In this document: in pieces, positions 18,634 to 24,386 of the stretch | Layout: the number at the start of each line of letters is the position of its first letter | How positions within the stretch are numbered: the stretch's first letter is position 1 | Assembly: GCA_013375375.1 (NCBI GenBank) | Contig: JABXJX010000011.1 | Span: 1 to 34,824 of the forward strand | Source: Desulfobacterales bacterium | GTDB lineage: Bacteria > Desulfobacterota > Desulfobacteria > Desulfobacterales > C00003060 | Length of the DNA stretch: 34,824 bases | Direction of reading: 5' to 3' | Made by a program: the position numbers and the translations under genes | The notes under the pieces: generated by a model | Told to the model about the DNA's origin: nothing | Database searches by the model: none | What the model saw: the letters and a program-made list of their open reading frames with translations, nothing else

Positions 18634-18669
18634 CGAGGTATATATAGCAGCAAATACACCTTTTTCAAG

Positions 18670-18981
18670 TCAAAACAGCAAATCAACCACCCCTGAGATT
18701 GTTTGTACTCCGACCATCTCAATATCGGATAACCCCTTGAGGTCTTTCAGATTGTTTTCTGGTATAGGGTAGACTCCTTGACGGGTTTATCATAGAAACT
18801 CGAAGCGATAGCCGAGACGATTCCAAGATCTACAGCAGGTTCATCCACCTTAACGCCGCCGGTCACGTTCCACCAAGCTATTCCATTCGCCGCACTCAGG
18901 GCATTTACCCATCCATTTAAGTGATTGATATCCGCAGCCCTGACATACAAAGATAGTTTTACTTAGTTTGTAATTTTTCAA
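18670..18981 (-). pseudogene. radA: radA remnant with ATPase core deleted
   Basis: Three pieces of RadA (Sms) lie in order but in shifting frames. First, from TTG 18979-18981 (or an in-frame ATG at 19014), [20 protein letters not shown] continues into [11 protein letters not shown], the zinc finger with C-x2-C and C-x2-C. This frame stops at 18850. Second, about 18867 to 18757, [20 protein letters not shown] and then IASSFYDKPVKEST come from the Lon-like C-terminal domain. Third, 18760-18670, PENNLKDLKGLSDIEMVGVQ ends VVDLLF and stop, the normal C-terminus. The RecA-like ATPase domain and part of the Lon-like domain are missing: about 0.3 kb remains of a normal 1.35 kb. It cannot encode working RadA. 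Confidence 0.9.
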
Positions 18982-19104
18982 GATTGATTTTCCTTGAGGT
19001 GTCGGTCTATCCATATTCACTTGATGTTATACTGTTTAATTTCAAAATAGCATGAAATTGGATGTAAGAAAAAGGAAATATTTTTGTAGCATTGAATTTT
19101 TTTT

Positions 19105-19140
19105 ATTCGCCTCAGGCGGACTGCAGAGAGCTTCAAAAAT
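19105..19140. repeat. REP-like unit, copy 2
   Basis: ATTCGCCTCAGGCGGACTGC, followed by AGAGAGCTTC, shares the CGCCT-AGGCGGACTGCAG core with the unit at 17162. Its hairpin is shorter. It lies in the intergenic region before the nucleotide-sugar dehydrogenase operon. Apart from this and the promoter, 18982-19240 shows nothing further. Confidence 0.55.
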
Positions 19141-19161
19141 ATGCTAAAGGAAAGGTTTTAT

Positions 19162-19190
19162 TTGACAATTTGGAGCAAACAACATAATAT
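19162..19190 (+). promoter_or_regulatory. Sigma-70 type promoter of the five-gene operon
   Basis: TTGACA (19162-19167), a 17-base spacer and TAATAT (19185-19190). A second TATAAT overlaps just downstream but has a poor spacing. The start codon of the first gene lies about 45 bases past the expected start site. Confidence 0.65.
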
Positions 19191-19240
19191 ATAATGTCTT
19201 ATTCATAAAAAAATAAGCACAAGTCGGCACGGAGACATGG

Positions 19241-20581
19241 ATGGGAAGAACTGCTCTGACTAAGATTTCTGTGATCGGTATGGGTTATGTGGGCATACCG
19301 GTGGCTGCCCTCCTGGCAGACCAAGAAGGCCTGGATGTGACCGGGATCCAGAGGCGCTCTCAGCGTTCGGGGTGGAAAATAGATGTTCTAAATACAGGCA
19401 GGTCTCCTTTTGAAGGCGATGAACCCGGGCTGGACAGACTGATCAGCCGCGTTGTAAAAAAGAGGCGTTTCCGGGTGACTGAGGATTTTTCGGTCATCAA
19501 GGATATGGATATTGTATTAATTGATGTGCAAACCCCCACCGACGGCGCAGATCACAAGCCACGGTACCTTTCCCTTAAAGAGGTTTCAAGGCAGGTAGGG
19601 ACTCATCTGAAAAAAGGGAGCCTGGTGGTGATCGAGTCAACCGTCGCGCCGGGCACCACACAATTCGTTGTGCAGCCCATATTAGAGCGAAAGTCCGGAT
19701 TAAAAGCGGGCCGGGATTTTTATCTGGCTTATTCTTACGAGCGGATTATGCCCGGCCGGCTCCTTGATTATATCATTAACCTTCCGAGGATCGTGGGAGG
19801 GGTTAACAAGAAAAGTCGCGACAAGGCAGTTAGAATGTACAAGAAGATTGTCAAGGCCGACGTCTTGTCGACGGACATCCTTACGGCCGAAACCTCCAAG
19901 ACCATCGAGAATGCTTATAGAGACGTGAACATAGCCTTTGCCAACGAGATGGCAATGGTGTGTGAAAGTCTGGGTATTGATGTGTATGAGGTGCGTGAGC
20001 TGATTAATTCCCGCGCCGAACGGCATATGCATATACCGGGGATTGGAGTGGGGGGACACTGTCTTCCGAAAGATACCTGGCTTTTAGGCTATGGAGTTAA
20101 ACAGTACGGCAGGTCACCTATCAATCCGGAGTTTGTTCAGTTGGCCAGAAAGATAAATAATTTTATGCCGATCCATGCTACGGAGATGATTAAAGAGGCT
20201 TTTGCATCCAGGAAAGTCTCCCTTCGGAACGCCAGGGTTGCAATTTTCGGTGTGGCATATCTTGAAGACTCTGACGATGTCCGAAACACCCCTGCCTATG
20301 ACCTAATACGGGAGCTTGAGGCGCATGGCACTGAAGTTGTCGCCCATGATCCGTATGTACAAACCTTTCCCGAGGCCGAACTGAGCCGTGATTTGTATCA
20401 TGTGGTAAAGGGATCTGACTGTATAGTGATTGCTACCAAGCATAAATCTTACTTTAAGCTAAATCTAAATAAGATTAAATCACTGATGCGTACCCCAATT
20501 ATTGTTGACGGACGAAACGTTTTGGATCAAACGAAGGCTGAAAAAGCGGGCTTTCTATATAAAGGGATCGGCAAAGGGTAG
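19241..20581 (+). CDS. Nucleotide-sugar dehydrogenase (UDP-glucose/GDP-mannose DH family)
   Basis: NAD-dependent two-step oxidation of a nucleotide sugar to its uronic acid, supplying envelope polysaccharides. The protein is 446 aa. The Rossmann motif is GMGYVG (13-18), followed by ESTVAPGTT (132-140). The helix ETSKTIENAYRDVNIAFANE carries the family Lys and Asn. The catalytic Cys274 is in GVGGHCLPKDTW. The C-terminal NAD-binding domain contains VAIFGVAYLEDSDDVRNTPA. The usual VPTP motif reads VQTP. It resembles WecC-type enzymes, but the substrate cannot be told. The histidine kinase gene starts 9 bases later, so the two are cotranscribed. No glycosyltransferases accompany it. Confidence 0.9.
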   Translation: MGRTALTKISVIGMGYVGIPVAALLADQEGLDVTGIQRRSQRSGWKIDVLNTGRSPFEGDEPGLDRLISRVVKKRRFRVTEDFSVIKDMDIVLIDVQTPTDGADHKPRYLSLKEVSRQVGTHLKKGSLVVIESTVAPGTTQFVVQPILERKSGLKAGRDFYLAYSYERIMPGRLLDYIINLPRIVGGVNKKSRDKAVRMYKKIVKADVLSTDILTAETSKTIENAYRDVNIAFANEMAMVCESLGIDVYEVRELINSRAERHMHIPGIGVGGHCLPKDTWLLGYGVKQYGRSPINPEFVQLARKINNFMPIHATEMIKEAFASRKVSLRNARVAIFGVAYLEDSDDVRNTPAYDLIRELEAHGTEVVAHDPYVQTFPEAELSRDLYHVVKGSDCIVIATKHKSYFKLNLNKIKSLMRTPIIVDGRNVLDQTKAEKAGFLYKGIGKG

Positions 20582-20590
20582 CTTGGGTTT

Positions 20591-21949
20591 ATGGGCGTAT
20601 TTAACGCTATTATAGAACGGGTTGAGGGAAAGAAGGAAGATTATGCTGCCTATGGTTTTGAAAAACTTGAAATGGCCGCATTAAATACCTTTTTTGACCT
20701 GGCCCAGGAATATGACGGTCTGGATAACCTCTATATAGTGAGCGTTACCGTGCCCAGGGTCTTTTTCGGACTGCAAAGCAATCTGTACCTTGTCGATCCT
20801 AAAACTGAGACCATAGCGTGGGTGGCGGAAAGTGATCCCGTTGCGGGCCGTACAGAGATCAAAGTGCCGCGGTATATCAAAATCTCAGAGGCCCCTTATC
20901 GACACGGCAACTCCTACATAGTTCCCATCCACGGCAAGAAAACACCTGCCAGTCACATTTTCTTTCATGGTTCACGAGATGTTATCGGTATCTTTGAAGT
21001 AGCCCGGGCCGACGACCTTGGCGATGCCCAGCTTTTCTTTATTCAAAAATATGTCAACCGCATAGGCTACAATATGTATAATAGATTTCTCGCCGAACAA
21101 AACATTCAGCACCTTAAGTTTATCAACAATTTGGTGGCAGACATAGAACACAATGTGATCGTGCCCAACATGCGCTACAAGCGTTACTTCAGGAAGATCA
21201 GAAAATATCTGAACACAAACAAGGAGGTCGAAGGTGAGTTTGACAACATCCTTGATGATCTCAAATCTCAGGGCCGAAGCCTGTATGCCAAGATGAGTGA
21301 AGCGCTGGAAAGGATGATCATGATCAACAGGGCCATATTCAACGATCAGGAAAAGATAGAGCAACATTATAAACATACCAGCCTCTTCTTGGAAACCTTG
21401 TTGCGTCCGGACCACTTCTTGTTAGGCGAATATATCCTGAAAAAAACTCCCTGTTACTTTTGGCATGATATTATACTGCCTCAACTGGAACGATACAGGA
21501 ATCGGCTCGCGCAACAAGGTATTATGATTGACCACATCGTCAAGGAACGTAAGGCATCCGAGGATGTACAGGTTAAGGTGGACAAAGGGTTGATGGCCCA
21601 GGTGGTTTCAAATCTCTTTTCAAATGCCGCAAAGTACGCTGAAACAGTCGCGGACTCTTCAGGGAAAAAAAACAGAAAGATTGATTGCAGGGTATCGCGC
21701 GCCAAAAAGTTTTTTGGAAGTGGACATCATGGTGTGCGCTTAGATGTTTTTACTTCAGGACATCCTATTGACCAGGAAGATGCAGCCCACATTTTTGATG
21801 AGGGTTTTCGACTCACGCAGCGCGACTCAGTGGAAGGGTCGGGTCACGGGCTTCATTTTGTAAAGAATGTGGTTGAGGTACATGGAGGGATAGTTGGTTG
21901 TGAAGCAGTCGAGCTTGGAAACGAATTTTACTTTATTATTCCGGCATAG
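20591..21949 (+). CDS. Soluble histidine-kinase-like protein
   Basis: A 452-aa protein with no membrane segment. Residues about 25-165 form a GAF-like sensory region (NLYLVDPKTETIAWVAESDP, DVIGIFEVARADDLGDAQLF). A helical DHp-like part has the candidate phospho-acceptor H187 in NNLVADIEHNVIVPN. The HATPase domain has an N box, QVVSNLFSNAAKYA (337-350), and a glycine-rich lid GSGHGLHFVKNVVEVHGG (416 onward). The G1 box reads VFTSGHPI, without the usual Asp and second Gly, so ATP binding may be altered. No response regulator lies nearby. The C-terminus overlaps the transglycosylase start. It could act as a kinase or as an ATP-binding regulator. Confidence 0.85.
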   Translation: MGVFNAIIERVEGKKEDYAAYGFEKLEMAALNTFFDLAQEYDGLDNLYIVSVTVPRVFFGLQSNLYLVDPKTETIAWVAESDPVAGRTEIKVPRYIKISEAPYRHGNSYIVPIHGKKTPASHIFFHGSRDVIGIFEVARADDLGDAQLFFIQKYVNRIGYNMYNRFLAEQNIQHLKFINNLVADIEHNVIVPNMRYKRYFRKIRKYLNTNKEVEGEFDNILDDLKSQGRSLYAKMSEALERMIMINRAIFNDQEKIEQHYKHTSLFLETLLRPDHFLLGEYILKKTPCYFWHDIILPQLERYRNRLAQQGIMIDHIVKERKASEDVQVKVDKGLMAQVVSNLFSNAAKYAETVADSSGKKNRKIDCRVSRAKKFFGSGHHGVRLDVFTSGHPIDQEDAAHIFDEGFRLTQRDSVEGSGHGLHFVKNVVEVHGGIVGCEAVELGNEFYFIIPA

Positions 21950-22856
21950 TTATCAGAGATCCGCCCTATGGTTCTTGGCAACGGCGGCCTTGAGCCTTGT
22001 CTGGCTGCTGGGCCACACTGACTGCGCCGCCGGCAAACCGCCGGTTAGACCTGATTTCTTTGCTACACTGAAAACACGTCTTGTTAAGGACGGATTTGAC
22101 AAGTCACTCATCCGATCGCTTTATTCAAAGCCGGGAGTAACCTTTGACCAACGGGGCGTTTCCGCCTACTTTTTGCACCGTGAGGCAACCTTAAACTATA
22201 ATCAGTTTTTGACCCGTTCTTCGATCGGCCAGGCGATCGACTATCTTGGCCGACATCAAAAGACCTTAAAACGGGCACAAGGCGTGTACGGTGTAGACGA
22301 AGAGGTCATTACCGCCATCATCCTGGTGGAGTCAAGGTTAGGCACTTCAATCGGGAAGCGCCTGATATTCAATACCCTGTCGGCTCTTGCGGCCCTGGAT
22401 AATAAGAATACCCGGGACGGTCTCTGGCACTCTTATTTGAAAAACAAGACAAAAGAATCAAGACGCCGATTTGACACATGGGCCTCTCGAAAATCCGCAT
22501 GGGCATACAGTGAACTCAAGGCATACCTGAAATACGTAAAGGTACAAGACATTGATCCTCTTTCTATACGCGGCTCTTATGCCGGTGCGTTGGGGATTTC
22601 CCAGTTCGTGCCTTCGAGTGTACTACGATTTGCTCAGGACGGTAACAGAGACGGCCGTATTGATCTGTATGACCATGAAGATGCTATTGAGAGTATCGCC
22701 AATTACCTGAAACAGCACGGGTGGCGTCCTTCTTTGAAACGCCGTGAGGAGTTTCGCATTCTGCTTTCCTACAATCAAAGTAAATATTATGCAAACACGA
22801 TTCTTAATATTGCCGAACGTCTGGCAAAACTCCGTACTAAAGTGCGTACAAATTAG
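21900..22856 (+). CDS. Lytic murein transglycosylase, MltB family
   Basis: Cleaves peptidoglycan between MurNAc and GlcNAc with 1,6-anhydro product formation. From GTG 21900 it is 318 aa; GGAGGG about 10 bases upstream supports this start, which overlaps the kinase gene by 50 bases. The N-terminus carries a signal anchor or signal peptide (ALWFLATAALSLVWLLG). The catalytic Glu is in the segment ITAIILVESRLGT (about E144). GSYAGALGISQFVPSSVLRF and DLYDHEDAIESIANYLKQHG are diagnostic of the SLT_2/MltB family. The cysteine in HTDCAAG is not in a good lipobox, so a lipoprotein is not certain. Confidence 0.92.
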   Translation: MKQSSLETNFTLLFRHSYQRSALWFLATAALSLVWLLGHTDCAAGKPPVRPDFFATLKTRLVKDGFDKSLIRSLYSKPGVTFDQRGVSAYFLHREATLNYNQFLTRSSIGQAIDYLGRHQKTLKRAQGVYGVDEEVITAIILVESRLGTSIGKRLIFNTLSALAALDNKNTRDGLWHSYLKNKTKESRRRFDTWASRKSAWAYSELKAYLKYVKVQDIDPLSIRGSYAGALGISQFVPSSVLRFAQDGNRDGRIDLYDHEDAIESIANYLKQHGWRPSLKRREEFRILLSYNQSKYYANTILNIAERLAKLRTKVRTN

Positions 22857-22864
22857 GGTTTCAT

Positions 22865-23089
22865 ATGAGCCACACCTTCATTGTTATACTCTTGCTTCCA
22901 ATCATCTTTACCTTCTGGGCGATTATTGACCTTGCCCATCGAGATTTTGCTTCAATAAAGAAAAAAGCACTTTGGGGAATATTCGTGGTTTTCGTTCCGT
23001 ACATCGGAGGACCTGTCTATCTTATTTTTGGCCGCAGGCGAGTAAGCAACAGCTCATTGAGGGAAAAAGATGAAAAAAAGGCCGAATAA
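22865..23089 (+). CDS. Small membrane protein, PLDc_N-like
   Basis: A 74-aa protein with two predicted membrane helices (about 5-23 and 36-54), joined by IIDLAHRDFASIKKKALWG, with YIGGPVYLIFGRRR after the second. This is the arrangement of the phospholipase D N-terminal (PLDc_N) domain, which occurs alone or in front of cardiolipin synthases. No PLD catalytic domain follows. AGGG precedes the ATG, and the 3' end overlaps the PGK gene by 20 bases, so translational coupling is likely. Its function alone is unknown. Confidence 0.82.
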   Translation: MSHTFIVILLLPIIFTFWAIIDLAHRDFASIKKKALWGIFVVFVPYIGGPVYLIFGRRRVSNSSLREKDEKKAE

Positions 23090-24386
23090 GGATCGATTCC
23101 CCTTGATTCAGGATGCGGATCTTGCAGGCAAGGTCGTGCTGGTACGCGTGGATCACAATGTGGTGAAAAACGGTGTTATCCGCGATCCTTACCGCATCGA
23201 CCGGACTATCGGCACGCTTTATAACATTGTCGAGAGGGGCGGGCGTATTATACTCATGACGCATGTTGGAAGACCACGGAACAAAAAAACCGGGAAGATA
23301 ACCTGTAATCCCTCCACCTCCGTAGAGCCGATCGCCGCCTACCTGGAACATAAGCTTCATTCCAAGATTCACGTACCTGCCTTTCGGGTTGAAGAAAAAC
23401 GTGGAATTATAGGAATTGATACCTCGATTAACCTGGCTATCAAAGATCTCAAGCAGCACAAGATCGGCGGGATCTATTTCCCCAACACGCGATGGTTTGA
23501 GGGGGAGGAAGCGACCGGAGAGATCAGGGATGCTTTTGCGCGTCAGCTGGCAGGCCTGGCGGATATTTTTGTCAACGACGCTTTCGGATCATGGCAGCCT
23601 CACGTGTCCACTTACGACATTGCCGGTTTACTGCCGTCGTATGCCGGTTTTCTCATGCAAGAAGAGATCGCACACCTGGACAAGGTCCTACGCCCTGATC
23701 GTCCTTTTGTGGCTGTAGTGGCGGGCGCCAAATACGACACCAAGATAGGGCCGCTTAATGAACTTTACAAAAAGGTGGATTATCTTATCTTGGGTGGCGT
23801 GATTTACAATACCTATCTGTGTGCCAAGTATAACATCCGGATCGCCGGGGTTTCAGAAGATGATATTGATGCGGCCAAGAAACTTGTGTCCAGGGACAAG
23901 AAGGCCAATAAGATTGTGGAGCTTCCATACATAGTGGAGTCGGACACCTTGGGCAAAAAGGTTCGGGGAAGATACAAAACCATAGCGATACGGGACCTTG
24001 TATCCAACAGTTCCTATGGTTATGTTTTAGACATTGATCCCAAGTCTTTTTCCGACAAAAGAGTTGCCGAGGTTGTTGGTTCGGCCCGGACCATCTTTGT
24101 CAATGCAGTTATGGGATATACACCGCATTTTACCGATGGCTCTGAGGCCCTTGACCGAACAATCGACAAAAACGCTACCGCATGGAAATTTTACGGCGGC
24201 GGCGATACCCTCCAGGAGTTTAAGAGCCTTTGCCCCGGTCTCTATCTTTCGGTATTGGATGATGCTTTATATTATTTTTTTACAGGCGGGGGGTCGGTCC
24301 TTAAAGCGATCGAAAAAAGCGATCCCTTTGGTATGAAACCGGTGCGGGCGCTCATAGAGAACAAAAAGTCGATTGAACCGCAATAG
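23070..24386 (+). CDS. Divergent phosphoglycerate kinase family protein
   Basis: A 438-aa protein with the PGK layout: VRVDHNVVKNG (residues 25-35), DPYRIDR, MTHVGRPR (63-70), NDAFGSWQPHVST (169-181), AGAKYDTKIG (219-227) and GGGDT (376-380). The usual D28, N30, R42, H65, R68, R141, K221 and K225 equivalents are present. Differences are notable: DHN for DFN, WQPH where GTAHRAH would place a substrate-binding Arg, and VNAVMGYTP for NGPxGVFE, which loses the ribose-binding Glu. The start overlaps the small membrane protein gene. It may phosphorylate 3-phosphoglycerate poorly or act on another substrate. I leave the symbol blank because a standard pgk is probably elsewhere. Confidence 0.82.
   Translation: MKKRPNKDRFPLIQDADLAGKVVLVRVDHNVVKNGVIRDPYRIDRTIGTLYNIVERGGRIILMTHVGRPRNKKTGKITCNPSTSVEPIAAYLEHKLHSKIHVPAFRVEEKRGIIGIDTSINLAIKDLKQHKIGGIYFPNTRWFEGEEATGEIRDAFARQLAGLADIFVNDAFGSWQPHVSTYDIAGLLPSYAGFLMQEEIAHLDKVLRPDRPFVAVVAGAKYDTKIGPLNELYKKVDYLILGGVIYNTYLCAKYNIRIAGVSEDDIDAAKKLVSRDKKANKIVELPYIVESDTLGKKVRGRYKTIAIRDLVSNSSYGYVLDIDPKSFSDKRVAEVVGSARTIFVNAVMGYTPHFTDGSEALDRTIDKNATAWKFYGGGDTLQEFKSLCPGLYLSVLDDALYYFFTGGGSVLKAIEKSDPFGMKPVRALIENKKSIEPQ

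Follow-up and report, generated by a model that had tools for sequence, protein, structure and literature searches.

The window, a stretch of 34,824 nucleotides of Desulfobacterales DNA (contig JABXJX010000011.1), comes from a genome of 2.18 Mb that is 87% complete. Its open reading frame listing contains five genes, all on the forward strand, packed in one run at positions 19241–24386. The positions and families given to them in a sequence-only reading agreed with both this listing and Pfam, where matches above cut-off were obtained to UDPG_MGDP_dh (three domains), HATPase_c only for the kinase, SLT_2, PLDc_N, and PGK. The features of the block and its border are as follows:

18747..19020, minus strand: remnants of radA (Sms), a zinc-ribbon start and a C-terminal piece, at the upstream border of the block
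19162..19190, plus strand: sigma-70-like promoter, TTGACA-17-TAATAT, a 10/12 consensus match
19241..20581, plus strand: nucleotide-sugar 6-dehydrogenase, of the UDP-HexNAc dehydrogenase type by its nearest solved relatives (Pfam, NCBIfam, structure relatives)
20591..21949, plus strand: soluble histidine kinase with a GAF-like N-terminal domain, a helical DHp with the invariant His187, and HATPase_c
21900 (GTG) or 21894 (TTG)..22856, plus strand: MltB-type lytic transglycosylase (SLT_2) with an N-terminal signal sequence
22865..23089, plus strand: PLDc_N-type small membrane protein of 74 aa, without a phospholipase domain (Pfam)
23070..24386, plus strand: divergent phosphoglycerate kinase of the PGK-II subfamily, with a 20-nt overlap with PLDc_N

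Successive genes are spaced by 9 nt, −50 to −56 nt, 8 nt, and −20 nt, in keeping with the tight packing (a 9-nt gap and overlaps of 20–50 nt) described from the sequence. A scan for the sigma-70-like consensus returned the 10/12 site upstream of the block, where 0.12 such sites were expected in 350 nt. Plus-strand sites inside the window's block reached 9/12 at most, near the chance level. One good promoter had been claimed; a 10/12 site upstream with none strong inside agrees with this, as a consensus match only. Promoter-like sites at 10/12 were also seen at the head of the block in G000, G008, and G012, and consensus scanning of the internal gaps of 20 relatives returned no site at this threshold. 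At the upstream border, radA has decayed in the window (18634–19240), where what remains in place is the zinc-ribbon start and, from the C-terminal end, a short piece. G015 has also lost radA, which is intact in G016, G017, and G005, and no other RadA was found above cut-off in the window's genome or in G015.

The dehydrogenase scored 397 bits against TIGR03026 (cut-off 189.8), with its N-terminal, central, and C-terminal domains all matched. It resembles the WbpA/WecC/Cap5O-type UDP-HexNAc dehydrogenases in its three domains, in the catalytic GGHCLPKD motif read in its sequence, and in its best solved relatives (3g79, 4r16, and 3ojl), yet it scores below every equivalog cut-off, and its substrate is thus not fixed by family. 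The longest open reading frame of the transglycosylase begins at TTG 21894; GTG 21900, which has GGAGG about 10 nt upstream and lies 50 nt inside the kinase gene, is the likely start. The start must be inside the kinase gene because the signal sequence begins there. The protein is like the MltB lytic transglycosylase in its SLT_2 domain and in a VE[ST]RxG-like catalytic stretch, but its 144.9 bits against the MltB equivalog TIGR02282 are below the cut-off of 281.4, with only the SLT_2 superfamily threshold passed, and it sits in a metabolic operon.

Gene order was compared with relatives in public contigs, which are Desulfobacterales MAGs. Counting only where the contig permits, the PLDc_N gene lay upstream of PGK in 18/18 testable genomes (17/17 genus members plus G026, from another family), with another gene intervening in some genomes and a gap of up to about 220–720 nt in some relatives. 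The kinase gene was found in 20/21 same-genus genomes, the exception being G019, whose contig starts inside the transglycosylase gene. It lay directly upstream of the transglycosylase in all 18 genomes having both, and the overlap between the two is kept in most relatives; G011 is without a transglycosylase. PGK-II was present in 18/22 genus members, and in the remaining four the block is interrupted by a contig end. Conservation across relatives rules out a chance order in one genome. Order within the genus does not by itself say much for a shared role, because the upstream flank of yebC, rlmE, and radA is also syntenic in most members. The block persists, however, while its downstream border turns over: the downstream neighbour of PGK is common to G000 and G016 only and otherwise differs in nearly every genome. 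The upstream flank also changes in G006, G009, and G012, where an AsmA-like gene replaces radA/rlmE and the block is unbroken for as much of it as the contigs cover. A unit is therefore favoured.

A fixed set of five genes is not supported. A dehydrogenase ortholog was found in 17/22 genomes and nowhere in the genomes of G006, G008, G009, G012, and G013. The G026 block is without a kinase and has a PHP-domain gene where the window has the dehydrogenase and kinase. A sixth gene, encoding a protein with cNMP-binding and PilZ domains (cNBD-PilZ), lies between PLDc_N and PGK in G006, G011, G012, G013, and G026; remnants are present in G004 and G019, and none in the window, where PLDc_N and PGK overlap. 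The two-domain protein can be seen at L068:12360–13061 and L083:8465–9202; several members, the window among them, have lost its gene or retain it in decayed form. The part common to the genus and one other family (G026) is the MltB-type transglycosylase, the PLDc_N protein, the cNBD-PilZ protein, and PGK; these, and not the five window genes, are the predicted ancestral core. The kinase was probably added in the genus, and the dehydrogenase in part of the genus. Because cNBD-PilZ has been lost and the dehydrogenase and kinase are variable among relatives, the tightly packed five genes of the window most likely represent a derived arrangement that has been compacted. What stands of the five-gene operon first described is one transcription-unit-like block, its order kept in the genus and, in part, in another family. 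The run is taken to be a real, lineage-specific operon.

The last gene had been called a divergent PGK-like kinase. Its divergence was borne out, as it falls in a divergent clade that we call PGK-II, but it is a full PF00162 member and not merely PGK-like, scoring 278.7 bits (cut-off 27) over profile positions 1–377 of 379. Its closest solved relatives are bacterial PGKs such as 1VPE, and its AF2 model (pLDDT 87, pTM 0.85) matches solved PGKs at E about 1e-28. In a tree of 42 sequences, PGK-II was monophyletic (branch support 100/100) on a long stem branch, separate from the canonical PGKs of Desulfobacterota and from a third type of 544 aa, with the relative placement of these long branches unsure.

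With bacterial PGK (PF00162; T. maritima 1VPE and human PGK1), PGK-II shares the fold, a whole-length alignment, and most substrate residues. In PGK, the roles of the basic patch (Arg65, Arg122, His62) and of Asp23 and Asn25 have been described, with Arg65, Arg122, and Arg170 binding the 3-phosphate of 3PG and Arg65 and Arg170 making closure salt bridges (PMC7729029). PGK-II retains the equivalents of Asp23, Asn25, Arg38, His62, Arg65, Arg122, Lys215, and Lys219, and D28, N30, H65, R68, and R141 were invariant in an alignment of 23 sequences. It differs at the Arg170 equivalent, which is Q176 in the window and Gln in 43/45 PGK-II sequences (Arg in 2/45), and in an invariant SW[QR] that replaces the [AS]HR of canonical PGK with one residue deleted there. 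NAVMGxTP replaces NGPMGxFE, the Glu being absent in 45/45, and about 7 residues are inserted after GGGDT. In PGK, the Glu following NGPMGxF contacts the ATP ribose. Loss of Asp218 was dropped as a hallmark, since canonical Desulfobacterota PGKs vary there too (D, N, G, T). Three variants were also noted (L135, L136, and L137), two with Arg for Gln at the Arg170 position and one with the KYDTK loop changed to KGITH, and three PGK-II matches (L204, L206, and L215, in G434, G379, and G328) have one in-frame stop each. The trypanosomatid PGK-like proteins have likewise lost 3PG-site residues and are linked to a cyclic-nucleotide-binding module, although theirs is fused within one protein, while here it is a neighbouring gene in relatives. 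They are thought to be catalytically impaired (PMC7729029), whereas PGK-II is likely active.

A survey of Desulfobacterota found PGK-II in 46 of 395 sampled genomes, many of them from other families and without the envelope genes. PGK-II thus reads as a general PGK rather than as a component specific to an envelope system. No conserved partner was found across the PGK-II neighbourhoods examined; the neighbours include genes that, from reading their sequences, we take to be pgi and pyk (G034) and, presumably, enolase (f104/f119, cluster C19). Among the 35 carriers searched, 23 have a further PF00162 match. In the other 12, all at least 91% complete and including the single-contig G416, PGK-II is the only PF00162 protein; GAPDH was found in 11 of them. 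It is because of these genomes that we consider PGK-II probably a working phosphoglycerate kinase rather than an off-pathway kinase; they make a pseudo-enzyme, or a non-glycolytic protein by default, unlikely. Canonical PGK was not found in the window's genus, except in G007. In most genus members there is also an archaeal-looking protein of 544 aa whose PGK domain is flanked by N- and C-terminal extensions (G000:C79; L096:7262–8896). Its gene adjoins a DedA-like one, with a UDP-glucuronate decarboxylase-like gene close by, and the protein could carry PGK activity in the genus.

The kinase matched the profiles of KdpD, WalK, and HK853 over its catalytic half, and a fold search agreed. It shares with these orthodox sensor histidine kinases the DHp-CA architecture, an H-box His with Pro at +5, the N-box, and the G2 box, but has no transmembrane or periplasmic sensor, and instead its own GAF-like N-terminal domain and a long DHp. 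Across 27 sequences, H187 (the phospho-acceptor, in DIEHNVIVPN), N188, and P192 were invariant, as were N341/N345 of the N-box and the G2 box; unlike in the orthodox kinases, the Asp of the G1 box (DxGxG) was Ser/Thr in all. The structure model is of moderate confidence (pTM 0.45), with long DHp helices, and the order of alpha and beta elements in its first 160 residues fits GAF. GAF profile matches of 14–15 bits (E 0.04–0.08), below the Pfam cut-off, were obtained in paralogs only, and on the model the N-terminal domain looks GAF-like, with a ligand-type fold.

Outside the genus, the kinase family was found in family f64 only. Several genus members (L090, L091, L093, L094, and L095) have a second paralog with about 41% identity, directly upstream of glycerate 2-kinase, GpgS-like, and GlgA genes and in the same orientation, with a transketolase gene oriented divergently. 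Most of the genus has the GckA/GpgS/GlgA cluster, including members without the second paralog. Metabolism of 3PG/glycerate and glycans is the common element of both paralogs' settings, which is suggestive and no more, and the paralog's position before the glycerate-kinase/GpgS/GlgA genes hints that the family may sense carbon status. This lends indirect support to the metabolite signal proposed from the sequence. A partner response regulator was looked for and not found in the neighbourhoods examined for either paralog or for G084/G535. A regulator two genes after PGK-II in G058 (L085) looks unlinked, as do scattered regulator-containing proteins elsewhere (cluster C9).

We favour, with a probability of about 0.6, a reading in which a Desulfobacterales genus has a single transcription unit that places a probable housekeeping PGK-II behind envelope genes and a kinase, has the dehydrogenase as a late addition, and co-expresses carbon supply and envelope growth. 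Transcription would start upstream of the dehydrogenase, and the overlapping starts may couple translation from kinase to transglycosylase and from PLDc_N to PGK. PGK-II would interconvert 3-phosphoglycerate and 1,3-bisphosphoglycerate for gluconeogenesis/glycolysis, as the sole-PGK genomes suggest. By their families, the dehydrogenase may oxidise UDP-N-acetylhexosamine for surface glycans and the transglycosylase may trim peptidoglycan. The kinase might read the cell's carbon/energy state through its GAF-like domain, to which the paralog's neighbours weakly point. The joint function that we infer would be central-carbon supply co-expressed with envelope growth and not a dedicated pathway; the shared role in envelope remodelling suggested by the sequence-only reading is plausible.

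The adjacency could also be accidental, with unrelated housekeeping and envelope genes that became neighbours in an ancestor staying adjacent through vertical inheritance as the gaps shrank, and with no functional link. The equally syntenic upstream genes, the gains and loss within the block, and the occurrence of PGK-II in other contexts are consistent with this. We nevertheless consider it rather unlikely, as the block has held together through changes at its downstream border, four of its genes are common to another family, and the genes overlap rather than being separated by gaps. Still less probable is that PGK-II phosphorylates a carboxylate other than 3PG, such as one linked to surface polymers. 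The invariant SW[QR] with its deletion, the lost Glu, the long stem branch, and the 23 carriers with a further PF00162 match point that way, but no other PGK was found in 12 high-completeness genomes, most of which have GAPDH, PGK-II has presumed pgi, pyk, and enolase neighbours, and the eight residue equivalents listed above are kept.

Dedicated signalling, in which the kinase senses a triose/3PG-type metabolite under the control of PGK-II and in response tunes the wall cleavage and the making of surface sugars that the same operon encodes, is similarly improbable. Both paralogs stand with 3PG/glycerate enzymes (PGK in one case, glycerate 2-kinase and GpgS in the other) and glycan genes, the GAF-like domain has a ligand-type fold, and the kinase–transglycosylase overlap is widely kept; against this are the lack of a nearby response regulator, GAF scores below cut-off, the replaced G1-box Asp, and the absence of the kinase from the G026 block and of the dehydrogenase from five relatives. 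More speculative still, and in our estimate very unlikely, PGK-II would be a distinct PGK class with rebuilt 3PG and nucleotide sites, and soluble GAF kinases would sense the 3PG/glycerate node, coupling lower-glycolytic flux to envelope growth and carbon storage; one kinase paralog accompanies PGK and the wall-cleaving enzymes, and its counterpart accompanies glycogen/glucosylglycerate synthesis.

What is most new here is the PGK-II subfamily rather than the mixture of five genes. The subfamily is undescribed; the literature searched held nothing on the clade or the operon, in agreement with the earlier view that this combination is not a described system. Annotators should note that proteins called 'PGK' in Desulfobacterota come from two or more deeply separated lineages, and that the genus adds a third, long type. 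The operon offers a specific connection, open to testing, from lower glycolysis to a new kinase family and to the cell envelope. A PGK clade without the textbook substrate-binding Arg that nonetheless seems to be the sole PGK of several near-complete genomes would mean that the 3PG site of a core glycolytic enzyme can be rebuilt.
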